NCBI GenBank assembly: GCA_023142835.1
Contig: JAGLIS010000010.1
Span: forward strand, 1-34,002
Direction of reading: 5' to 3'
DNA length: 34,002 nt
Origin: Candidatus Pacearchaeota archaeon
GTDB lineage: Archaea > Nanobdellota > Nanobdellia > Pacearchaeales > GW2011-AR1
Under the pieces are notes generated by a model. The model was not told where the DNA came from and made no database searches. It saw nothing but the letters and a program-made list of their open reading frames with translations. Shown here in pieces: positions 5,388-33,618 of the stretch. Numbering within the stretch: the stretch's first letter is position 1; the number at the start of each line of letters is the position of its first letter. The translations under genes and the position numbers were made by a program.

Positions 5388-5411
5388 GAGAGTGTTAACT
5401 ATTCGTGGCTT
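5388..5411 (+). repeat. Left terminal inverted repeat
   Basis: GAGAGTGTTAACTATTCGTGGCTT. Confidence 0.78.
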
Positions 5412-6661
5412 ATCATGATTTTCTGCTCTTCTGTTAATTGCGTGGCTTTTTCCTCCATTTTAGTTATTTGAATATTATTTATACTATTCATTAACATAGT
5501 ATTCCATCTGTTTCCTTGAACTCCAACACCACATTTATCAGCAGGAGTTGTTTTATTCTTAACATCTTTTCTAATGAAATTATGAAAAACCTTAAATCCG
5601 TCTTGATATGTTTGGGTTTCTGTAACTCCTTGTCTTACTTTGTGAAATTCTTTTTGTTGTGAGTGATGGCTCTCTATTGCGTTATTATTAACCTCTTTTC
5701 TTCTGCCTATTATTGAAGTAAATTTAACTTTTCTTTCATTTCCCCAATTTCTAAAAGTTTTTCTACATCCATCTTGATAACCTTTGTAACCATCTACTAT
5801 AATTTGAAAAGGGATTTTTCCGTTTTGTTTCCATGCTTCCGTAAAAACCTTTTGGGCGTCTTTTGATTTTCTACTTCTACCAGAATTAATCGAAGCAAGA
5901 AGAAACTTAGTTTTATTATCCATAACATTCCAAACATAATCAAAATTAGTGTTTGGTGCTTTCTTATCTTTTCCTCGTTTTGTTAAAATTAAAGTTTCGT
6001 CTGCATTCCAAACCCCTTTAATATTTGGCTGAATTGTTTTTGAGTATTTTTCCATAACTTTACTAAACTTTAATACCCAGTTTCTAATAGTAACATGAGA
6101 AATTTTTAAATTATAAAATTGTTTGAATTGGTCGGAAATATCTCGGTAACTCAAACCCTTATAATAACAATCCATAGCAAGACAAACCATTTTCTCGTTT
6201 CCTTTAATGTTTTTAATTGGCTCTAAAACAAATCTTTTCTTACATTCTTTACAGCAATAAATTTGTTTTTCTTTTAGTTGTGTTTTTCTTACTCCTCTCT
6301 TAATTATATTTTCAGAAGAACAATGAGGGCATAAATCTTTTTTTGGTTCTTGAATAATAAACTCTAATTCTTCTTCAACTTCGGGCTTAACTTCGTATTT
6401 GGATTTAATTTTTTGAAATAAAATAATTGCTTTAATGTGTTTACAATAAAGTCCTTTTCCTCTACACCTTTTTATGAAGTCGGGGCAAGAGCAAGAATAA
6501 CTATCTAAATGTGTAATTTCATATTTTTTATTGCTATCAAATTGAGATGGGACTATGTAGGTATTCTCGTCTAAAACTTCGGGGTTGCCTCGTTTTAATA
6601 TTTGTCTTGCTTTTTCTTCTCTTGATTGAGAAAATTGTTTTATTGTTTGTTTTGTTTCCAT
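5399..6661 (-). CDS. DDE transposase with N-terminal SWIM zinc finger and zinc ribbon
   Basis: SWIM motif YSCSCPDF...YCKHI; ribbon CPHCSSENIIKRG...CCKEC; DDE candidates in NADETL, IVDGYKGY, NNNAIESHHSQQKEFHK. Confidence 0.88.
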   Translation of the reverse strand: METKQTIKQFSQSREEKARQILKRGNPEVLDENTYIVPSQFDSNKKYEITHLDSYSCSCPDFIKRCRGKGLYCKHIKAIILFQKIKSKYEVKPEVEEELEFIIQEPKKDLCPHCSSENIIKRGVRKTQLKEKQIYCCKECKKRFVLEPIKNIKGNEKMVCLAMDCYYKGLSYRDISDQFKQFYNLKISHVTIRNWVLKFSKVMEKYSKTIQPNIKGVWNADETLILTKRGKDKKAPNTNFDYVWNVMDNKTKFLLASINSGRSRKSKDAQKVFTEAWKQNGKIPFQIIVDGYKGYQDGCRKTFRNWGNERKVKFTSIIGRRKEVNNNAIESHHSQQKEFHKVRQGVTETQTYQDGFKVFHNFIRKDVKNKTTPADKCGVGVQGNRWNTMLMNSINNIQITKMEEKATQLTEEQKIMISHE

Positions 6662-6663
6662 CT

Positions 6664-6684
6664 TATATACCTATTAGGTATATA
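6664..6684. promoter_or_regulatory. Candidate operator palindrome in divergent promoter region
   Basis: TATATACCTA-T-TAGGTATATA, perfect 10-bp arms just upstream of the transposase start; a further TAGGTATA at 6721-6728. Confidence 0.5.
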
Positions 6685-6805
6685 CCCTTTATAAAGATTA
6701 TTGTGATGTAGTATACTCTTTAGGTATACATAACTATTATAATGTGTTTAGTCTTATATGTTATAATAAACATATATTTATAAGCACATAAGAGTATTAA
6801 TAAGC

Positions 6806-7030
6806 ATGGAAGACCGTGTTATTAGTATGAAAAAAGAGGGCTTTGGTGTGAACGTTCTTATTTTGGGTCATCGTTGTCATCGTTGTAAACACGCTTGGGT
6901 TCCACGAGATATAAGTGAAATTCCAGAAATATGTCCTAAATGTAAAAGCCCCTACTGGAAGAAGCCTAAGACAAGATTTACTAAGAAAGAATTAAAGAAG
7001 ATGAATAAGAAAAAGGAGAGTAAAAAATAA
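6806..7030 (+). CDS. Small zinc-ribbon protein
   Basis: HRCHRCKHAWVPR...ICPKCKSPYW, lysine-rich tail; abuts the methyltransferase start. Confidence 0.75.
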   Translation: MEDRVISMKKEGFGVNVLILGHRCHRCKHAWVPRDISEIPEICPKCKSPYWKKPKTRFTKKELKKMNKKKESKK

Positions 7031-8115
7031 TGGCAAATGCTAATTTAACAAAGGCAAAAAATGCCAAGAATGATGAATTCTATACACAGTATCATGATAT
7101 TGAAAGAGAAATGAATGCTTATCTAGAATATAATTCAAATGTATTCAAAGACAAAGTAATACTCTGTCCTTGTGATGACCCTGAATGGAGTAATTTTACA
7201 AAATATTTTGCACAAAATTTTGAGAAACTTAAATTAAAAAAATTAATTTCTACAAGTTATGCTTTTACAAGTAAAGGAATTAAGGGTGAGTATAAAGTAA
7301 CCATATTTGAAAGAAAAAATCCAAAATTTGATAAAAAGAAAGTTGAGATTAAAGGGAAAAATTTTATTCTTGCAAAAGATAAAAACGGAGATAATAAAAT
7401 AGATATAGCTGATTTAGATTATAAATATCTGGAAGGAGATGGAGACTTTAGAAGTAACGAAGTAACTAAATTAAGGGATGAGGCAGATGTGATAATTACG
7501 AATCCGCCATTTAGTTTGTTTAGGGAATTTTTGGTTTGGATAACAGAGGCAAATAAAAAATTTCTGCTAATTGGAAATAAAAATTGTGTTACTTATAAGG
7601 AAGTGTTTCCTCTAATAAAAGATAATAAATTGTGGTCGGGAAAAACAGAATGGAGTGGTGGGCTATGGTTTGAAACAAAAAATCCTGATGATGTAGATAA
7701 AATTATTAATGGCATCAATATGAAGAACGTGCCTTCGGTTTGGTTTACCAATCTTGACCACGGTCGCCGTCATCAAGAATTACCTTTAATGACTATGAAC
7801 GATAATCTGAAATACTCTAAGCATAAAGAAATAAGGGGTAAAAAATCCTATGACAAATATAAGAACTACGATGCTATAGAAGTTTCTTTTACAGATGCTA
7901 TTCCTAGAGACTATAAAGGTGCGATGGGTGTTCCTGTTAGCTTTTTAGACAAATATAATCCAGAACAGTTTGAGATTATCGGAATGGCGGAAGATAACGG
8001 CAAAGGTTTTTCAGGAGGAATTTGGGATGGTAAAAATCCTCATTGTATTATAGATGGGAAAAGTAAATTTAAGCGAATTTTTATCAAACACAAAGAAATA
8101 AAAAACAAAAATTAG
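7030..8115 (+). CDS. EcoRI-family adenine-specific DNA methyltransferase
   Basis: NPPF motif in [18 protein letters not shown], then [27 protein letters not shown], recalled as EcoRI-methylase-like. Confidence 0.88.
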
Positions 8116-8125
8116 TATAAATAAT

Positions 8126-9286
8126 ATGAAAACAACACTAAAGGAATACAAAATAAAAGATATATGCGAAGGATTTGTCTATAATGAATTAGAAGCAAAG
8201 GGACTTTTCGGTTTAAGTGGGACTTTAACTATTCAACCAGAATATCAAAGACACTATATTTATGCTGATGGTAAAAAAGATGTTGCGGTAATTGAGTCTC
8301 TTTTAAGGGGCTATCCAATAGGGCTTATTTATTTTAACAAAATTGGGGAAGACAAACTTGAAGTTTTAGATGGACAACAAAGAATTACAAGTATTGGAAG
8401 ATACGTACAAGAAAAGTTTGCAATTAAAGATGAAAATGGTATGCCACAGAATTTCACTAGTCTTTCACAAGATAAACAAAAACAAATAATGGATACAACA
8501 TTATTGATTTATGAATGCGAAGGGAAAGAGGATGAGATAAAAGAATGGTTTAAAACAATTAATATTGTGGGGGTTCCATTAAACGAACAAGAACTTCTAA
8601 ATGCAATTTATTCAGGAGAATTTGTGACTCTTGCAAAAGAAGAGTTTAGTAATTCGCAAAATTCCAACACTCAAAAATGGAGTGCATACATTAAGGGTAA
8701 TGCTAATAGGCAAGAATTTTTAGCGGAAGCATTAGAGTGGGTAAGTAAAAAAGAGGTAGGAGATTATATGAGCAAACATCGGAAGGATAAAAATATTGAC
8801 CAATTAAAAAATTATTTTAGTAGTGTGATTGACTGGGTTTCTCAAACATTTATAGATGTTGAAAAAGAAATGAAGGGATTAGAATGGGGAAGACTCTATG
8901 AGGAATATCACAAAAAAGGATATGACCCAAAAAAAGTATCAGAAGTTGTACAAAAACTATATGCAGATTCTTGTGTTGAAAATAAGAAAGGAATTTTTGA
9001 ATATGTTTTAGGTGGGGAGAAAAATACTAAACTTCTTACTATTAGAATTTTTAGTGAAGCAGTTAAAAACTCTGTATATGCCTCTCAAGTTGCTGAAGCA
9101 GAAAAGACAGGTGTTTCAAACTGTTCTCATTGTGCCATTGGTCACGATACAAATAAAAATAAGATTTGGAGATTAGATGAAATGGATGCTGACCATGTAG
9201 GTGCTTGGAGTAAAGGTGGAAAAACAGATATCTCAAATTGTGAAATGCTTTGTAAAACACATAATAGAGCTAAGGGAAATAAATAA
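8126..9286 (+). CDS. DUF262 (ParB/GmrSD-like) protein with C-terminal HNH nuclease domain
   Basis: [34 protein letters not shown] and [23 protein letters not shown]...[34 protein letters not shown]. Confidence 0.88.
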
Positions 9287-14094: not shown

Positions 14095-14167
14095 GCTTCG
14101 GTAGCTCAGCAGGTAGAGCGCACGGCTGTTAACCGTGTTGTCGGAGGTTCGAGTCCTCCCCGAAGCG
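14095..14167 (+). tRNA. tRNA-Asn (GTT)
   Basis: 7-bp acceptor GCTTCGG/CCGAAGC, D-arm TAGCTCAGCAGGTAGAGC, anticodon stem-loop CACGG-CTGTTAA-CCGTG, T-loop GTTCGAGTC, discriminator G, no encoded CCA. Confidence 0.97.
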
Positions 14168-18806: not shown

Positions 18807-19817
18807 TTATTCTTTCAAAAAATTTCGAATATTCTCTTTGAATTTTTCTAAATCTTTTGTAAGGATTTGTCCTCCTGCGGCAGGAATATGACCGCCTGCG
18901 GATGCGTCATCTAATCCCTTAATTCCTGCCCTCAATAGTTCTGCCATGTCTTTCGTTTTAGATTGATTTCTTGCACTTATCGAGAGATTTTCTTCATCAA
19001 TAGGTGTTGCAAAAATTATTGTATCTTCAGGATTATTCCTACTGATTATTGCAGAAAGAGGTTTTTTGATAAAATATTTTGTTTCGAAGTAGAAAAAGTA
19101 CACATCTCCCAATTTTTTCTTTTCAAAATCAAATCTTTTTATTATCTTAGAAAGTTCATCTTCAATTTGTTCTGAATATTTTTTCAGTTTTTTGAAATCT
19201 TCTAAGGAGTTTATCTCTTTCATTATCTTGAATGCTTCTTGAAGATCTTCCTGAAAATAAACTAATGTATTGCCAAGAACATGTGAGACTTCCTCTTTGA
19301 ATTTTTCTAGGGAGATTCCCTCTTTATTTAGAAATTCGTTTATGAACTTGTCATTTTCAGGATATAAATCTCCTGCATCAGTTATTGTTCCAGCGACACT
19401 TAGCCAAGGTTTTATATTTGTGAGTTCTCCCGCGGTTCTTGACGACGGGATATATCCCTCTTCAGAAGTTCTTAACTCTAAAATTTCCTCGGGAATTTTT
19501 TCTCTTTCAGGATGATGATCTGTATAAAATATTTCTTTATCTGTGGGAAGTGAAAGCTCTTCGATTCCTCCAGGAGCTATATCTGTAATAATTATTTTAT
19601 TAAATTTTTCTAAACTTATTTTCTTATCCCATCTACAAAAATTAAAAATGAAGTTCTCAACTTCTGCACCTTTATTTTTACACCAATCATAAAATATAAT
19701 CCCTGATGCGAATCCATCTCCGTCGTTGTGGTGGATAACTGCTACGCAATCTTTATCATTGATATTATCTAAAAACTCTTTCGCTTGACTAAATGTTATC
19801 TTTGGCATTTTATTCAA
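18807..19817 (-). CDS. DHH family phosphoesterase (RecJ-like)
   Basis: VIHHNDGDGFASG, IITDIAPGG, FYTDHHP, C-terminal DASAGGHIPAAGGQI. Confidence 0.9.
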   Translation of the reverse strand: MNKMPKITFSQAKEFLDNINDKDCVAVIHHNDGDGFASGIIFYDWCKNKGAEVENFIFNFCRWDKKISLEKFNKIIITDIAPGGIEELSLPTDKEIFYTDHHPEREKIPEEILELRTSEEGYIPSSRTAGELTNIKPWLSVAGTITDAGDLYPENDKFINEFLNKEGISLEKFKEEVSHVLGNTLVYFQEDLQEAFKIMKEINSLEDFKKLKKYSEQIEDELSKIIKRFDFEKKKLGDVYFFYFETKYFIKKPLSAIISRNNPEDTIIFATPIDEENLSISARNQSKTKDMAELLRAGIKGLDDASAGGHIPAAGGQILTKDLEKFKENIRNFLKE

Positions 19818-21141
19818 AACTTTTTGCCAATTTAAAAATTAATTCTTCTTGGAAATGTGGCGCTAAAATCTGTAGTCCAACATCTTTGTTATCTATCTTT
19901 CCCACAGGAATAGAGATTGCTGGAAGTCCTGCAATAGATGCTGGCGTCGTAAAAACATCATAATCATACATATCCTTAACTGAAATTTTCTCTCCAATCT
20001 TATGAGCTGTTCGTGGGACTGTCGGGAGGATTATTGCATCGACCTCTTGAAATATCTCATCAAATTGTTGTTTAATAAAGTTCCTTGCTTTCAAAGCTTC
20101 CCTATAATATTTCCCTTCATGTTCGGCCTTAGTAATCTCTGAACCACCAATTATCCTTCGAACGACTTCAGGACCCGCAACCTCTTCAATTTTTTTCCCA
20201 AATCTTCTTCCATCAAATTTTCTCGTAGCTGAAAAAAATTCAGTATAAACAATTATATAATAAGTTTGAATCACAATATCTAAGGGGAGATTTATTTTTT
20301 TAATTTTCCAATTATTTTTTTTAGCTATTTCATTAGTTTTCAATTCGATTAACTCTGTGATTTCTTCCGAACAAAAATCTCTAACATTAACCAACCCAAT
20401 AATTCCTTTTTTAGATGATTTTTCTTTTGGAGCATCTTTTGTTGTCTGGTCAAAATTATCTTGTCCTTTAATTATGCTAAAAATTAGTTTTGCATCTTCG
20501 GAGGAATTTGTTAGAGGTCCAATGCAGTCAAAAGACATTGTCATATCTATCAGCCCGTAACGTGATACCACACCATAAGTTGGCTTTAATCCAGTTACCC
20601 CGCAATGCGATGCGGGATTTCTAATTGAGCCACCCGTATCAGAACCTAATGCAAAATCACAAAGTTCTGCAGCAACTGCCGACGCTGAACCTGATGAAGA
20701 ACCTCCAGGAATCAAGTCTTCATTTCGAGGATTTTTTGTTGGACCAAAAGCAGAAGTTTCTCCCGAAGCCCCGCAAGCAAACTCGTCCATATTTACCATT
20801 CCCAAAAGTATTGCGTCCTCTTCGAGAAGCTTATTAATTACTGTAGCATTATATGGCGAGACATATCCCTCAAGAACCTTAGAACCACAATTCGTTTCCA
20901 ACCCTTTCACAGAGATATTAGATTTTACTGCAAAGCAAAGCCCTGCTAATTTCCCTGCAGTTCCGTCTTTTATTCGTTTATCGACGGCTTTCGCTTGTTC
21001 AATAGCATTTTCATTTAATCTTAAAAAAATGTTTAGGTCTTTTGTCTTCGGTGTTGAAATTTTTTTTGAAAATGTCATAACATTCTTCACAGCAGTTAAT
21101 TCGCCTGATTTGAATTTTTTGAGTTTAGATTTGAGTGTCAT
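19810..21141 (-). CDS. gatA: Asp-tRNA(Asn)/Glu-tRNA(Gln) amidotransferase subunit A
   Basis: AVKSNISVKGLETNCGSKVLEGY; GGSSSGSASAVAAELCDFALGSDTGGSIRNPAS amidase signature. Confidence 0.95.
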   Translation of the reverse strand: MTLKSKLKKFKSGELTAVKNVMTFSKKISTPKTKDLNIFLRLNENAIEQAKAVDKRIKDGTAGKLAGLCFAVKSNISVKGLETNCGSKVLEGYVSPYNATVINKLLEEDAILLGMVNMDEFACGASGETSAFGPTKNPRNEDLIPGGSSSGSASAVAAELCDFALGSDTGGSIRNPASHCGVTGLKPTYGVVSRYGLIDMTMSFDCIGPLTNSSEDAKLIFSIIKGQDNFDQTTKDAPKEKSSKKGIIGLVNVRDFCSEEITELIELKTNEIAKKNNWKIKKINLPLDIVIQTYYIIVYTEFFSATRKFDGRRFGKKIEEVAGPEVVRRIIGGSEITKAEHEGKYYREALKARNFIKQQFDEIFQEVDAIILPTVPRTAHKIGEKISVKDMYDYDVFTTPASIAGLPAISIPVGKIDNKDVGLQILAPHFQEELIFKLAKSFE

Positions 21142-23419: not shown

Positions 23420-24802
23420 CTACTTCCCTTTCTTCCCAATATCCAACTTAATATGAACATCTTTTAACTGCCTGTCCGAAAGCGGGCTAGGTGCATCAAC
23501 CATCAAATCCTTCGCCTCCTTATTCTTCGGAAACGCAATCGTCTCCCTAATAGATTCTACTCCAAGAATCACTTGAATTAATCTATCCAATCCCCACGCT
23601 ATTCCACCATGTGGCGGTGCTCCAAATTTTAGTGCGTCTAATAAGAAACCAAATTTCTCTTTCTGTTCTTTCTTCCCGATTCCAAGAACCTCGAAAACTT
23701 TCGCTTGAATATCTTCTTCATGAATTCTTATCGAGCCTCCACATATCTCAACCCCATTTAGAACTGTATCATACGCAATTGATTTCGCGGTTTTAGGGTC
23801 TTTGTTAAACGACTCCATTTCTGGATGTGTAAACGGGTGATGTATTGCAACAGTTTTATTTTCTTCTTTTGAATATTCAAATAATGGAAAATCTACAACC
23901 CAACAAAAAGCGAATTCCTTGGAGTCATTTTTATCTTTTCTTAAATCAGGTCTATCTGTTTTATATTTTTTCATAGCCTCATCATGAGTAATTTTTTGAA
24001 AGGGTGTTTTAACTTCGACGTTTAAAATTTCTTTCCAAATCTTTTTTATAATCTTCTCGGTTAGAGCCATAACATCTTCTTGACTAACAAAAGACATCTC
24101 GATATCAAGTTGTGTAAATTCGGGTTGTCTGTCCGACCGAAGATCCTCGTCCCTCATGCATCTTGCAATCTGAAAATATTTCTCAAATCCTGCCACCATC
24201 AAAAGTTGCTTAAATAACTGGGGTGATTGTGGAAGCGCGAAAAATTTCCCAGGCTGTGTTCTCGACGGAACGATATAATCCCTAGCTCCTTCTGGCGTAG
24301 ACTTCGCAAGCATCGGAGTCTCAAACTCATTAAACCCTTCCTCATATAATGCATCTCGAATTATCCTAACAACTTTACTCCTCAAAATTAAATTCTTCTG
24401 CATCTCTGGTCTTCTCAAATCTAAATACCTATATTTCAGACGGATATCCTCGCCAACTTCATCATTATCTATGTCAAACGGGAGTGCTGAACATTTATTG
24501 TATATTTCAAGTTCCTGAATTTTTACCTCGACATTTCCAGCAGGTGAATTTTTATTCTCCGTTCCCGTCGGCCTTGAACTAACATTACCTTTAATTTTAA
24601 TACATGATTCCTTCGTCAAAGATTTTGCTATTTCGAAATTTTTCTCATCCTTCGCAGTAACAATTGTTTGGACCGAACCAGTCACATCCCTTATTTCTAA
24701 AAAAATTAACTTACCGTGCTCTCTAATTGTATCAACCCATCCAGCTATTTCAACTTCATTTCCCTCGAGAGAAGAGAGCTCCTTAATCATTGTTCTTGCC
24801 AT
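23420..24802 (-). CDS. aspS: Bacterial-type aspartyl-tRNA synthetase lacking the GAD insertion
   Basis: IRLKYRYLDLRRPEMQ, GARDYIVPSR, ALPQSPQLFKQLLM, CMRDEDLRSDRQPEFTQLDIEMSF, KFGFLLDALKFGAPPHGGIAWGLDR; 460 aa with YKTDRPDLR followed almost directly by WVVDFPLFE. Confidence 0.93.
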   Translation of the reverse strand: MARTMIKELSSLEGNEVEIAGWVDTIREHGKLIFLEIRDVTGSVQTIVTAKDEKNFEIAKSLTKESCIKIKGNVSSRPTGTENKNSPAGNVEVKIQELEIYNKCSALPFDIDNDEVGEDIRLKYRYLDLRRPEMQKNLILRSKVVRIIRDALYEEGFNEFETPMLAKSTPEGARDYIVPSRTQPGKFFALPQSPQLFKQLLMVAGFEKYFQIARCMRDEDLRSDRQPEFTQLDIEMSFVSQEDVMALTEKIIKKIWKEILNVEVKTPFQKITHDEAMKKYKTDRPDLRKDKNDSKEFAFCWVVDFPLFEYSKEENKTVAIHHPFTHPEMESFNKDPKTAKSIAYDTVLNGVEICGGSIRIHEEDIQAKVFEVLGIGKKEQKEKFGFLLDALKFGAPPHGGIAWGLDRLIQVILGVESIRETIAFPKNKEAKDLMVDAPSPLSDRQLKDVHIKLDIGKKGK

Positions 24803-25126: not shown

Positions 25127-25139
25127 GGGGCAAAAATTT
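25127..25139 (+). repeat. Left arm of inverted repeat flanking ORF 25138..25716
   Basis: GGGGCAAAAATTT, reverse complement at 25734-25746. Confidence 0.8.
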
Positions 25140-25716
25140 ATTTGGTTATTTTCACAATACCTAGAAGTGCATCTTTTTTGTTTTTTGGATTCTTAAATTT
25201 ATATAAAAAATTTATCAATTTTCTTCTAACAGGTGGTGCTTTTGGATTTACCTTTCTTGCTTTTTTCAACTTTGTTGAATCATAAATTAGTAATAAATCA
25301 ATTCGAACTGGATAACCTCTATCCAAAGGTGTGTGCTCGTAAAAATGCCAAACTGTATCACCAAATTCTGTGGGGTATTTGTTATCTTTTGGAATGACTA
25401 ACGTTCCATTCTTAATTGTGATTGTTCCTGCTTGAATATCATAATCATACCCACTGAATTCATCATGACACACACCTTTTCTTTTCAGATCATATTTGTC
25501 TGTCCCAGTTCTCAAAACAATATTTGCTAATTTATTCAATGATAATCCCTTATGATCATCTGATCCAATAGCACGAAAAATATATTTACCATCCGAAAAA
25601 CTTTTTTCCAATACTGCATCTACCTTTTTTCCCAATTTTAAATAATTAGGTTTCTTCTTCACATTATATTCAGGAAGATACACTTCTATTACTTTAACTA
25701 CCATATTATACTTCAC
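25138..25716 (-). CDS. Hypothetical protein, no family recognised
   Basis: 192-aa ORF; basic C-terminus (RRKLINFLYKFKNPKNKKDALLGIVKITK). Confidence 0.65.
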   Translation of the reverse strand: MKYNMVVKVIEVYLPEYNVKKKPNYLKLGKKVDAVLEKSFSDGKYIFRAIGSDDHKGLSLNKLANIVLRTGTDKYDLKRKGVCHDEFSGYDYDIQAGTITIKNGTLVIPKDNKYPTEFGDTVWHFYEHTPLDRGYPVRIDLLLIYDSTKLKKARKVNPKAPPVRRKLINFLYKFKNPKNKKDALLGIVKITK

Positions 25717-25948: not shown

Positions 25949-27373
25949 TTAAATAACTTCCTTCAAAACATCCGCAACCTCTTTCCCAGAAACTTTTCCC
26001 CTAAATTTTCCCATAACCAATCCCATGTACGCCCCCTGCGACAACCCTGGATTCTCTTTAACAAATTTCTCAACTTCTTCTTTCAAATTAATATCTGATT
26101 TTTCTATTGCCTTATCAAGAGTTTCCCCCTGAACAATTTTTTGCATAACCGTCCTAACATCATTCTTCGAAATCTTTTTCCCAACCTCTTCTAAAATCGC
26201 CTCTAACAAATGAACATTTAAAATTTCACTAACTTCAGCCAAAGATTTCTTTTCTTTTTTTGCAATCTCCATCTGGAAAAGCGTTAAAGATTTTGCTATC
26301 AATTCAGGACTCTCGATAACATGATTAAGTGTTTTAAAATCCTCGACCTTATTCTGTTTCAAAATCAACTTTACTAACTCTTCATTTAACCCAAACTCAT
26401 CTAAATAAGACCTATGCTCGGATGCAAGTTTTGGAAGATTATTTTTAGCTTCGTTAATTAACTCTCGTGAAATTTTCAAAAGTGGGACATCAGTTTCAGG
26501 ATACATTCTTGCAGCTCCTGGCATTGGTCGTTGAAATACTGAAGTCCCATCGGGAAGTGCTCCACGAACTTCGTTTTTACATTCATTATTTTTAAGGCAT
26601 TCTTTCTGTCGAGAAATTTCTATATCAATCGTCTTAATCATCATCTTAGGATCTTGGAATCCTTTAATTTCAACTCGCTTACTTCCCTTAATCGAAACAT
26701 TGACATCTTGACGAATCGTTCCAATTCCTCTCTTTACATTACATGCCCTCAATATCTCCCCAATTTTCATGGCGACTTCCTTACATTGCTTAGGAGAATA
26801 AATTTCTGGTTTTGTAGTAATTTCAACAAGCGGGATACCCAACCTATCTAACTTAAATGTCTTCGTTTTCTCATCCTCCGAAACTTTCCTCGCTGAATCT
26901 TCTTCTAAGGCAATAGTTTCAATCCCAACCTTTCCCTCAGGAGTTTCGACATAACCATCATGAGCAATCAACACAGTTCTTTGAAATCCAGAAGTGTTCG
27001 TTCCATCGACGACAGTTTTTCTCATTACTTGAGTTACTGGAAATGTATTACAATGAAACAATTCTGCAATTTGTAAAACTATCTTTAACGCATCAACATT
27101 AATTTCTCCCGGAGGAGATTCATCAAGTTCGACTAGACAGTTAGTATCATAAACATGGTAAATAAAAGTTTTATTTTTCATTTTTTCATGGGCAGCAGCG
27201 ACGTCAATTTCTCCAGTCTCACCTACCACAGGATTCAATATTCTCTCAACAGTATAGTCTGGCTCGTCATTTCTTAACAAAGAAGGACAATCACAAAATA
27301 GTTTATTCGTATTAAGTTGCTGATGAATTTCCAATCCAATCTTAAGTCCATCCTTTTTATAATCATGTTCCAT
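25949..27373 (-). CDS. gatE: Glu-tRNA(Gln) amidotransferase subunit E lacking the GAD insertion
   Basis: GLKIGLEIHQQLNTNKLFCDCPS; VMRKTVVDGTNTSGFQRT; RGIGTIRQDVNVSIKG; ALPDGTSVFQRPMPGAARMYPETDVP; 474 aa. Confidence 0.92.
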   Translation of the reverse strand: MEHDYKKDGLKIGLEIHQQLNTNKLFCDCPSLLRNDEPDYTVERILNPVVGETGEIDVAAAHEKMKNKTFIYHVYDTNCLVELDESPPGEINVDALKIVLQIAELFHCNTFPVTQVMRKTVVDGTNTSGFQRTVLIAHDGYVETPEGKVGIETIALEEDSARKVSEDEKTKTFKLDRLGIPLVEITTKPEIYSPKQCKEVAMKIGEILRACNVKRGIGTIRQDVNVSIKGSKRVEIKGFQDPKMMIKTIDIEISRQKECLKNNECKNEVRGALPDGTSVFQRPMPGAARMYPETDVPLLKISRELINEAKNNLPKLASEHRSYLDEFGLNEELVKLILKQNKVEDFKTLNHVIESPELIAKSLTLFQMEIAKKEKKSLAEVSEILNVHLLEAILEEVGKKISKNDVRTVMQKIVQGETLDKAIEKSDINLKEEVEKFVKENPGLSQGAYMGLVMGKFRGKVSGKEVADVLKEVI

Positions 27374-27894: not shown

Positions 27895-29136
27895 CTAGCT
27901 GTTGGAGGCTTTCTCCGACATTTTTTCTTTTGAATTCCAGTTTTTATGTCCGAGAACCCAACCAAGTTTTATTAATGCAGTTTCAGATAGCATGTCTTCA
28001 AGAAAAATAATTCCCGTTTTTTTTAATTCTCTTCCAGAAGAATATACATTAGGATTTAATCTACCATAAATAGTTTGAGCTGTAGCACATACGGTTATTC
28101 CTTTTTGTATCGCTTTTTTTATTTTTGGAATCCAGTTTGTCGAGGAGAATTTTCCAGGAACTTGACCTAGTCCAGTAGTTTCGATGATCAATCCATTATA
28201 GCCTTGTTGTTCATAATATTCAATTATCGACGGGTCTTGCCCAGGATGAATCTTTATTAGTGTAACTTTGTCCTGAAATTTAGTATCGAGTTTTGGCTTG
28301 TTATTCGAACGCGCATTAAATGTTTTTAAAATTTTTAATTCTTGTGAAGTGATTTCTGCGATTGGAGTATCATTAACTATCTTGAAAGCATCTCTTCGTG
28401 AGGTATGCAACTTCCTAACTTTAGTTGCAGGCATTGCTACACAGATTTTATCGTCGGAATTTTTATGTCCAACTAAAGCTATTTCAGCTATATCTGATAT
28501 TGCATATCTTGCTGAGCAGATTAGATTAAGTGCGGCATCTGTTGAAGCCCGATCTATGGAACGCTGAGAGTAAGTTAGAGCGATTGGTTTATTCAAATTT
28601 TGAATAAAAAATGATAGGGCGGCTGCGGTATAATGTAATGTATCAGTCCCGTGAGTTATAATTATTCCGTCGACAGATTTATCATTAAGATAAGGTTCGC
28701 ATGTTTCGGCTAGTTTTTTCCAATCTGAAGGAGACATATCCTCGGAGAACTTCATAAAAGGGGTATCGATTTTTGTAACATTACATACATTCTTTATTTC
28801 AGGAGCGATGTTTAAAATATCTTCAGCGTCGGTAGGAATTACTCCTCCGGATTTATAGTCGAGTCTTGATGAAATTGTCCCCCCAGTAATTATAACCACA
28901 ACATTTCTTAACTTAGGATTTTTTTCCAGGACAACTTCTTTTTTATCTTTTGGTTTAGCTTTCTCTAAAACTTTAGCATTAAGGATTTCTCCCTCCCGAA
29001 TCCCGATATTATAACCTGATTCTAGTTTCAGCAGAATAACTTCCGAATCGTGCGACTCAAGAGCGTAGCCTTTCCACAACTTGCTTTTCGTTTGCAATGC
29101 TACTTTATCTCCTGGAGAAAATGTTTTTGTTTTCAT
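27895..29136 (-). CDS. gatD: Glu-tRNA(Gln) amidotransferase subunit D (asparaginase-like)
   Basis: N-terminal small barrel (FSPGDKVALQTKSKLWKGYAL) plus IITGGTISSRLDYKSGGVIPT and GIIITHGTDTLHYTAAALSFF. Confidence 0.95.
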   Translation of the reverse strand: MKTKTFSPGDKVALQTKSKLWKGYALESHDSEVILLKLESGYNIGIREGEILNAKVLEKAKPKDKKEVVLEKNPKLRNVVVIITGGTISSRLDYKSGGVIPTDAEDILNIAPEIKNVCNVTKIDTPFMKFSEDMSPSDWKKLAETCEPYLNDKSVDGIIITHGTDTLHYTAAALSFFIQNLNKPIALTYSQRSIDRASTDAALNLICSARYAISDIAEIALVGHKNSDDKICVAMPATKVRKLHTSRRDAFKIVNDTPIAEITSQELKILKTFNARSNNKPKLDTKFQDKVTLIKIHPGQDPSIIEYYEQQGYNGLIIETTGLGQVPGKFSSTNWIPKIKKAIQKGITVCATAQTIYGRLNPNVYSSGRELKKTGIIFLEDMLSETALIKLGWVLGHKNWNSKEKMSEKASNS

Positions 29137-30498: not shown

Positions 30499-31890
30499 AT
30501 GGAAAAGGCGTTCCCAATTAAGATTGGTCTGGAGATTCATGGGTATTTAGATACTTGTGAGAAATTATTCTGTATGTGCAAAACTGATTTCTTAGATGCT
30601 AAACCAAATTCTTTAGTGTGTCCAATTTGTACAGGACAACCAGGCTCAAAACCAATGGCACCGAATTCAGATGCTATAAAAAAAATGATTCAGATTGCAT
30701 TGGTCTTCGGTTCAAAAATTAATTATTCAAATATTATTTGGCAAAGGAAACATTATAATTGGGCGGATTTACCAAAAGGTTATCAGACGACGATTTCTGG
30801 AATGCACGCGACGACAAATGCAACGAGTGGAAAATTTAAAGGAATTAATTTGACAGAATTGCATCTTGAGGAAGACCCCGCTCAATGGAACCCTGATTCA
30901 GGAAAAATAAATTATAATCGTAGCGGATTGCCGTTGATTGAGATAGTTACAGAACCAGAATTCAGCGACGCCGAACAAGTCATCGAATGGCTAAAGAGTT
31001 TGCTTTTATCATTAAGTTATATTAAAGCGGTTCGGAAGAATGCGGGAATTAAAGTTGATGTGAATGTTTCGACTTATGGCGAGAGAGTCGAGATGAAGAA
31101 TTTGAATTCGTTGGAGAAGATTCGGAAGGCGATAGGGTACGAAATTCTTAGACAAGTTGAAAATCATGATAAGGGAATTGTTCAGACGAGAGATACCTTG
31201 GCGTTCGACGAAAAATCAGGAAAGACAATTAAGATGCGATCAAAGGAAGGAGCTGCAGATTATAGATTCATACCTGATCCAGATTTATCTATGATAAAAA
31301 TAGATAAGAAAATTGTTAATAAAATCAAATCGGGTTTACCTGAAATGCCCGAAGTAAAACTGTCGAGGCTGTTAAAGAAGTATAAGGTTGGTGAAAAGGA
31401 CGCGAAGATTTTGACGAAGAATTTGGAACTGGTAGAATTTTTTGAAGAACTTGTGAATCATTGTATAGATACTGTTAAGAATATGAGCTGGGTAACTATC
31501 GAGTTGTTGAGGGTTTTGAATTACAATAAGAAAACTCTCGAGGACGATGATGTAGAAATTTTACCATCGCATTTGGCTGAACTGATTAAGATGGTTGAGT
31601 CGGGGAAGATTACAGTTTTGAAAGGGAAGCAGATTATGAATGATTTTGTTCCGAAGTCGTTTTCGTTGGCTGAGCATAAGGGGGAGATTTCTAATATTGA
31701 TGATTCGGCGATTGAGAATTTATGTAAACAAGTTATCTCGGAAAATGTTCATGTTGTTGATGAATATAAATCTGGGAAGGTAGCTAGTTTGAATTTTTTA
31801 ATTGGGCAAGTTATGAGGTTGTCGGAGAGGAGAGCCGACTACAAGGAAACAACAAAGATTTTGAAAAAGATATTGGGAGGCTCGGAGTAA
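30499..31890 (+). CDS. gatB: Asp-tRNA(Asn)/Glu-tRNA(Gln) amidotransferase subunit B
   Basis: IKIGLEIHGYLDTCEKLFCMCKT; VCPICTGQPGSKP; KHYNWADLPKGYQTTI; RKNAGIKVDVNVS; YRFIPDPDL. Confidence 0.95.
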   Translation: MEKAFPIKIGLEIHGYLDTCEKLFCMCKTDFLDAKPNSLVCPICTGQPGSKPMAPNSDAIKKMIQIALVFGSKINYSNIIWQRKHYNWADLPKGYQTTISGMHATTNATSGKFKGINLTELHLEEDPAQWNPDSGKINYNRSGLPLIEIVTEPEFSDAEQVIEWLKSLLLSLSYIKAVRKNAGIKVDVNVSTYGERVEMKNLNSLEKIRKAIGYEILRQVENHDKGIVQTRDTLAFDEKSGKTIKMRSKEGAADYRFIPDPDLSMIKIDKKIVNKIKSGLPEMPEVKLSRLLKKYKVGEKDAKILTKNLELVEFFEELVNHCIDTVKNMSWVTIELLRVLNYNKKTLEDDDVEILPSHLAELIKMVESGKITVLKGKQIMNDFVPKSFSLAEHKGEISNIDDSAIENLCKQVISENVHVVDEYKSGKVASLNFLIGQVMRLSERRADYKETTKILKKILGGSE

Positions 31891-32631: not shown

Positions 32632-32697
32632 TAATGAATGTTTTGCCGAGAATCAGAGTGCAATAATTCTTATAAAGCTGTATTGGGTTGTGTCAAG

Positions 32698-33618
32698 ATG
32701 GAAATTAAATCAGAAAAAGATTTGCAAGAATTGATTAATAATAAGATTGAGGAAAGTACAACTTTGGAATATAAGTCTATGGATTCTTTAACTAACAATG
32801 CAGAGATAGCCAAAGATATTTCTGCTATGGCTAATTCGGAGGGAGGTCTAATAATTTATGGGATTAAGGAAGATGCTGAGAAATATCCAGAAGAAATAGA
32901 ATGGTCTTCTGATAAGGGGTTGAAAGACAAGATAGACCAAGTTCTATCCTCTAAAATTACTAGGAAAATTGAAGGGTGTAATATTAAGGAAGTCCAATCT
33001 GATAGAGATAATAAGAAATTTGTTATAGTTGTTAATGTCCCAAGGAGTGATATTGCACCTCATCAGTCAAATAAATCTGTAGAAGTTAAGAAATATTATC
33101 GTAGGAGCAATTCTAGAATAAGAGAGATGGAACATGGTGAAGTAGAAGATTTATTTTTTGCGAGAAAGAGACCAAAGTTAGAGATTGAATTAAGAAGAAC
33201 ACCTACTAAAATTCCTGCTTATGAAATTATAATTCATAATAAAGGAAAAGTTTTAGCAGAGAAAATCTCCATAAAGTTTTTGATTCCCTCAGTGCTTAAA
33301 ATAATTGACGATGCTTGGTCGAAAATAAAAGATGGATACACTCATAAGGGGTATGGCTATTCAGAATATCAATATACTGGAAATGAATATGTTTATCCAG
33401 AATTGCCGACATGTATTGGAAAGATTTTTCATTCAAAAGAAGAATGTGTGGTATCATTAGATATAGGATTTTTGATTGTGTGTGAGGATATGGAGATTAA
33501 AAGAGGGAAAATAATAATGGGGGATAGAAAGCCGACGGAAATAATATATTTAGAAAAAGGGGTTCCATTGCCCGATTGGGAATTTAAGGATGGATTTTAT
33601 AGCATATATCATCAATAG
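32698..33618 (+). CDS. Schlafen AlbA_2-type putative DNA-binding protein
   Basis: Start reset to ATG 32698; ESTTLEYKSMDSLTNNAEIAKDISAMANSEGGLIIYGIKED; YYRRSNSRIREM. Confidence 0.85.
   Translation: MEIKSEKDLQELINNKIEESTTLEYKSMDSLTNNAEIAKDISAMANSEGGLIIYGIKEDAEKYPEEIEWSSDKGLKDKIDQVLSSKITRKIEGCNIKEVQSDRDNKKFVIVVNVPRSDIAPHQSNKSVEVKKYYRRSNSRIREMEHGEVEDLFFARKRPKLEIELRRTPTKIPAYEIIIHNKGKVLAEKISIKFLIPSVLKIIDDAWSKIKDGYTHKGYGYSEYQYTGNEYVYPELPTCIGKIFHSKEECVVSLDIGFLIVCEDMEIKRGKIIMGDRKPTEIIYLEKGVPLPDWEFKDGFYSIYHQ

Follow-up and report, generated by a model that had tools for sequence, protein, structure and literature searches.

The closest described relatives of the protein discussed here are the GatE subunits of Methanothermobacter thermautotrophicus (2d6f) and Pyrococcus abyssi (1zq1), which are 619 and 633 residues long respectively and contain a GAD insertion. 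GAD is a module common to archaeal GatE and bacterial AspRS; archaeal-type AspRS is the type without it. The presence of GAD has accordingly been used as a mark separating bacterial-type from archaeal AspRS (PMC4206432). The tail domain of GatE contacts the small D-loop of the tRNA, and the helical domain contacts the T stem (PMC4810234). GatDE also interacts with the A1:U72 pair of the tRNA (PMC9499178). The archaeal form of the Asn-transamidosome has no GAD, and its slower release of product has been connected with this absence (PMC9499178). We found no settled account of the role of GAD in GatE in the literature searched.

The GatE of the window

The window is the whole stretch of DNA analysed, 34,002 nucleotides from a Candidatus Pacearchaeota archaeon. 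The features of interest are as follows.

14095–14167, plus strand: tRNA-Asn (GTT)
19810–21141, minus strand: probable gatA, 443 aa; TIGR00132 469 bits, just below the cut-off of 481
23420–24802, minus strand: aspS, bacterial-type AspRS, 460 aa; GAD absent, with the break near 23930
25949–27373, minus strand: gatE, 474 aa, without GAD; catalytic cradle at approximately residues 1–300, then a helical domain and a YqeY-like tail
26573–26590, minus strand: GAD junction, residues 262–267 of GatE; site of the insertion of about 126 residues in canonical GatE
27895–29136, minus strand: gatD, 413 aa; GatD_N and both asparaginase domains; NF003217 441 bits (cut-off 310)
30499–31890, plus strand: gatB, 463 aa; separate GatCAB pathway

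The product of 25949–27373 is identified as GatE by two curated models, NF003107 (494 bits, cut-off 456) and TIGR00134 (443 bits, cut-off 320). It resembles the GatB of GatCAB in its GAD-less layout of cradle and YqeY domain and in its length, but it scores far below the cut-off of every GatB model (160 bits with TIGR00133, cut-off 315), and GatB forms a separate clade from GatE on a very long branch. The M. thermautotrophicus and P. abyssi proteins share with it the cradle, the helical domain and YqeY-like tail, the sequence motifs, the GatD partner and a partner tRNA-Gln with A1:U72. What it does not have is the AspRS-like GAD insertion typical of GatE, and it is therefore described here as a GAD-less variant rather than as a canonical GatE.

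The position of the missing segment is clear from alignment. Residues 4–273 match residues 2–272 of M. thermautotrophicus GatE (2d6f_C) and residues 265–473 match 395–614, leaving approximately 122 residues of 2d6f_C without a counterpart at about residue 265 of the window protein. The same gap is found on alignment with P. abyssi GatE (1zq1_C). In an alignment of 108 rows, the main GAD block contains 0 residues in all 51 short GatE sequences, and 123–127 in the long rows shown. A search with PF02938 (GAD), which found matches in all of 14 control genomes, gave none in the window GatE, nor in the rest of the genome assembly, which is 81.6% complete. The sequence-only reading, that this is a GatE of 474 residues that runs continuously across the position of GAD and has no GAD elsewhere, is thus correct.

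In the structure model of the window GatE (pLDDT 89.3, pTM 0.78), whose top structural matches are the P. abyssi and M. thermautotrophicus GatE, the junction is a short, roughly six-residue loop between a helix (242–261) and a strand (268–272). The core motifs G-EIHQQL, EED, RQD-N and RPxPG--RMYPETD are invariant or nearly so among 48 GAD-less GatE. Pfam identifies only GatB_N, together with a sub-threshold YqeY domain (20 bits, cut-off 27); the YqeY match is narrowly sub-threshold (26.6 against 27 bits) also in the GAD-bearing GatE of genome G252, a relative discussed below.

An intact GatD adjoins GatE, and the genome encodes an archaeal-type GluRS (gltX_arch, 513 bits) and two tRNA-Gln genes (TTG and CTG), both with A1:U72 and A73. 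The genome therefore has every component of the tRNA-dependent glutamine route, and the window GatE is probably catalytically active. It is worth adding that the genome contains GatA and GatB, yet the best GatC candidate reaches only 14.3 bits (cut-off 23), and no AsnRS scores above cut-off in the 81.6%-complete assembly. Between AspRS and GatE lies an open reading frame of 192 residues with a GTG start (25138–25716) that has no Pfam or NCBIfam matches. Elsewhere in the window, positions 5399–9286 hold a DDE transposase-like gene and, next to it, genes for a GmrSD_N/HNH protein and an adenine methyltransferase of EcoRI type (388.8 bits), possibly forming a restriction-modification island. The product of 32638–33618 contains a Schlafen/AlbA_2 domain (61.9 bits).

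The short form is not peculiar to this genome. GatE was found in 225 of 237 genomes of the phylum, 117 being short, 106 full and 2 unclear, with the class assigned from match extent and E-value; these classes agree with an independent count of GAD except in 21 genomes, many of which belong to families with divergent GADs or are contig fragments. A short GatE is encoded by all 23 genomes sampled from the window's family and by all 10 of the closest database relatives. Among 36 near relatives, 34 have a GatE and 33 of these are short, G252 having the single long one. We regard the short protein as a variant form of a known enzyme. It is widespread in this DPANN phylum, and no description of it was found in the literature searched. 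It is probably a working subunit of GatDE, with GAD as an accessory that was lost, independently of AspRS, in one or a few ancient events affecting whole clades.

History of the GatE change

The main GatE trees were built with the GAD columns taken out, and the gatB of the window was used as outgroup. The window's order forms one group of short GatE (support 100/98), with G252 as its sole GAD-bearing member. Within the short group, G252 and G033 are the rows that bear GAD, and their GADs are sisters (support 97) with an identity of 56%, against 48% for the rest; this excess is not exceptional, ranking 11th among 1225 pairs (z = 2.3). Their position requires either that GAD was retained there and lost many times around them, or that GAD was transferred.

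Some of the genes appear to be composite. The short rows of family f49 (genomes G084 and G221; L113 and L111) fall inside the all-short rows for residues 5–262 (support 95), and with a GAD-bearing f49 row for residues 300–472 (support 99). The segment trees of G176 (L037) are discordant in the opposite way. The discordance of the N- and C-terminal halves in these two cases suggests that the N-terminal, catalytic half carried the GAD state along with it, and thus gatE, a translation gene, seems from these sequences to have undergone intragenic recombination in G084, G221 and G176.

A first tree required six changes of state, a count due in part to a long row (L135) and to the chimeric genes. 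A more careful tree including the M. thermautotrophicus and P. abyssi proteins required five to six, and none of 200 bootstrap trees gave one origin. When all the short N-terminal halves were held together with G033 and G252, the likelihood rose above that of a quick free tree, and a single origin is therefore possible. The deep branching of GatE is poorly resolved, which makes the number and direction of the changes uncertain. The reading we favour, with good confidence as a whole, is that GAD was lost from GatE anciently, once or a few times, in a clade that holds the whole of the window's order.

The direction of this change is something we infer, and the main alternative is that the form without GAD came first and stands near an ancestor resembling GatB, with GAD inserted later in other archaea. 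This is unlikely. GatB does lack GAD, but the M. thermautotrophicus and P. abyssi GatE carry it, and so do the rows that branch closest to the root in the larger tree (f64, f65, f70 and f28). A tree in which the GAD-bearing rows are held together, against GatB and the short rows, is not rejected, and the very long GatB branch makes for a weak root; the gain in likelihood over the same free tree is nevertheless larger when the short rows are held together (27.9) than when the full rows are (14.6). A slightly less probable version has the phylum keeping a primitive GAD-less GatE, with GAD spliced later into both GatE and bacterial-type AspRS and moving between gene copies by recombination. The sister GADs of G252 and G033 are consistent with such movement, and the window GatE would then record a stage before the insertion.

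tRNA-Gln and the contacts of GatE

The sequence-only reading raised the idea that the contacts with tRNA had changed, and that tRNA-Gln might carry compensating changes. The tRNA-Gln genes do not support it. In a sample of 51 tRNA-Gln genes (29 from genomes with short GatE, among them the ambiguous G032, and 22 from genomes with full GatE), collected with the window's own gene as query and thus biased to similar genes, all have A1:U72, G2:C71, A73 and a D-loop of equal length, so that the identity elements are the same with or without GAD. Some positions in the body of GatE do differ between short and full proteins, for example residue 239, which is F or V instead of A. However, F239 is found also in the GAD-bearing proteins of G252 and G033, and residue 239 therefore tracks ancestry rather than GAD state; it was rejected as a compensating substitution. 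A change of contacts is accordingly improbable.

Given the unchanged elements of tRNA-Gln, and the contacts described for the tail, the helical domain and the A1:U72 pair, this GatDE most likely works by the usual chemistry, GAD being an accessory. GatD would release ammonia, and GatE would hold Glu-tRNA(Gln) with its cradle at the A1:U72 end, its helical domain, and its YqeY-like tail at the D-loop, and would amidate it as canonical GatDE does. The short loop of the model would simply close the position occupied by GAD in the canonical protein. On this proposal GAD would be a module with an accessory part in tRNA-Gln identity and in catalysis, and would have been lost once or a few times, its state sometimes carried along with the N-terminal catalytic half by intragenic recombination. 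By analogy with product release in the Asn-transamidosome, a comparable kinetic role of GAD in GatDE is possible.

GAD in GatE and in AspRS

The nearby AspRS also lacks GAD, as the sequence-only reading had noted. It is of bacterial type, scoring 618 bits with aspS_bact (TIGR00459) and only 226 with the archaeal model TIGR00458 (cut-off 368), and so passes the bacterial model but without the GAD. The two enzymes were suggested to have lost the same module in parallel, either by streamlining or through a change in tRNA contacts.

A survey of 237 genomes of the one phylum shows that the GAD states of GatE and AspRS are uncoupled. Of the genomes with a short GatE, 19 have a short bacterial-type AspRS, 47 a full one, and 50 none at the survey threshold; a full GatE occurs with a short bacterial-type AspRS in 11 genomes. 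Discordance thus runs in both directions, and the 47 genomes are the combination (GAD-less GatE, GAD-bearing AspRS) that had been named beforehand as arguing against linkage. A particularly close case is G252, in the window's own family. Its GatE, of Pacearchaeota type, bears GAD (42.5 bits, cut-off 23.4), and approximately 1.2 kb away lies a complete, GAD-less AspRS of 471 residues, about 60% identical to the window AspRS over the part compared.

That both enzymes dropped GAD together, through one shared interaction or a common streamlining pressure, is therefore very improbable, even though both are GAD-less within 3 kb here and there is a weak raw association across the 237 genomes (p = 0.007 for any GAD-less AspRS, p = 0.06 for bacterial-type only). 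The two discordant classes and G252 stand against it, and independent pairs on the GatE tree show no association (1.3 same, 1.2 opposite and 2.5 with no difference, from five or six pairs with correspondingly low power). So does the patchwork of AspRS in the window's family, made up of the archaeal type and three bacterial-type lineages. Archaeal-type AspRS is present in 17 of 23 family genomes, in several of them directly beside GatE (for example G116, G193 and G220). The bacterial-type AspRS of the family fall in three separate places in the AspRS tree: that of the window with L001, L002, L009 and G161; that of G154 with rows of f18, f48, f52, f58, f15 and f10; and those of G100 and G213 with f5. 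As most family members have the archaeal type, the window AspRS reflects gene replacement and not parallel loss, a reading rejected in view of the discordant genomes, the AspRS types and tree, and the pairs. Nor is genome reduction alone a sufficient cause, since G014, with a genome of 2.1 Mb, has a short GatE, and G009, with 0.7 Mb, has GAD in both GatE and AspRS.

Two further observations concern AspRS itself. About 30 genomes of the phylum, in scattered clades, have a GAD-less bacterial-type AspRS (including that at 23420–24802 and L170–L197). In L057, L053 and L077 the bacterial-type AspRS is 756–774 residues long; in L057 its C-terminal part is an aminoacyl-tRNA editing domain (PF04073 tRNA_edit, 102.7 bits), and the tails of L053 and L077 look similar. 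AspRS of the L057 kind is a synthetase fused to a YbaK/ProX-like deacylase.

A frameshift, misassembly or pseudogene can be set aside almost completely: the metagenome-assembled genome is only 81.6% complete, but the gene has an ATG start and a single stop with 474 codons open between them, full-length relatives are up to 88% identical, and the identical junction recurs in dozens of genomes.

Our preferred reading, an ancient loss of an accessory GAD from a working GatE, suggests that GAD is dispensable in this protein. Naturally GAD-less enzymes in more than 100 genomes, together with close GAD-bearing relatives (G252, f49 and f13), make the role of the module testable. Domain content is also an unsafe marker in this group: GatE is not defined by the presence of GAD, and an AspRS that lacks GAD need not be of archaeal type.
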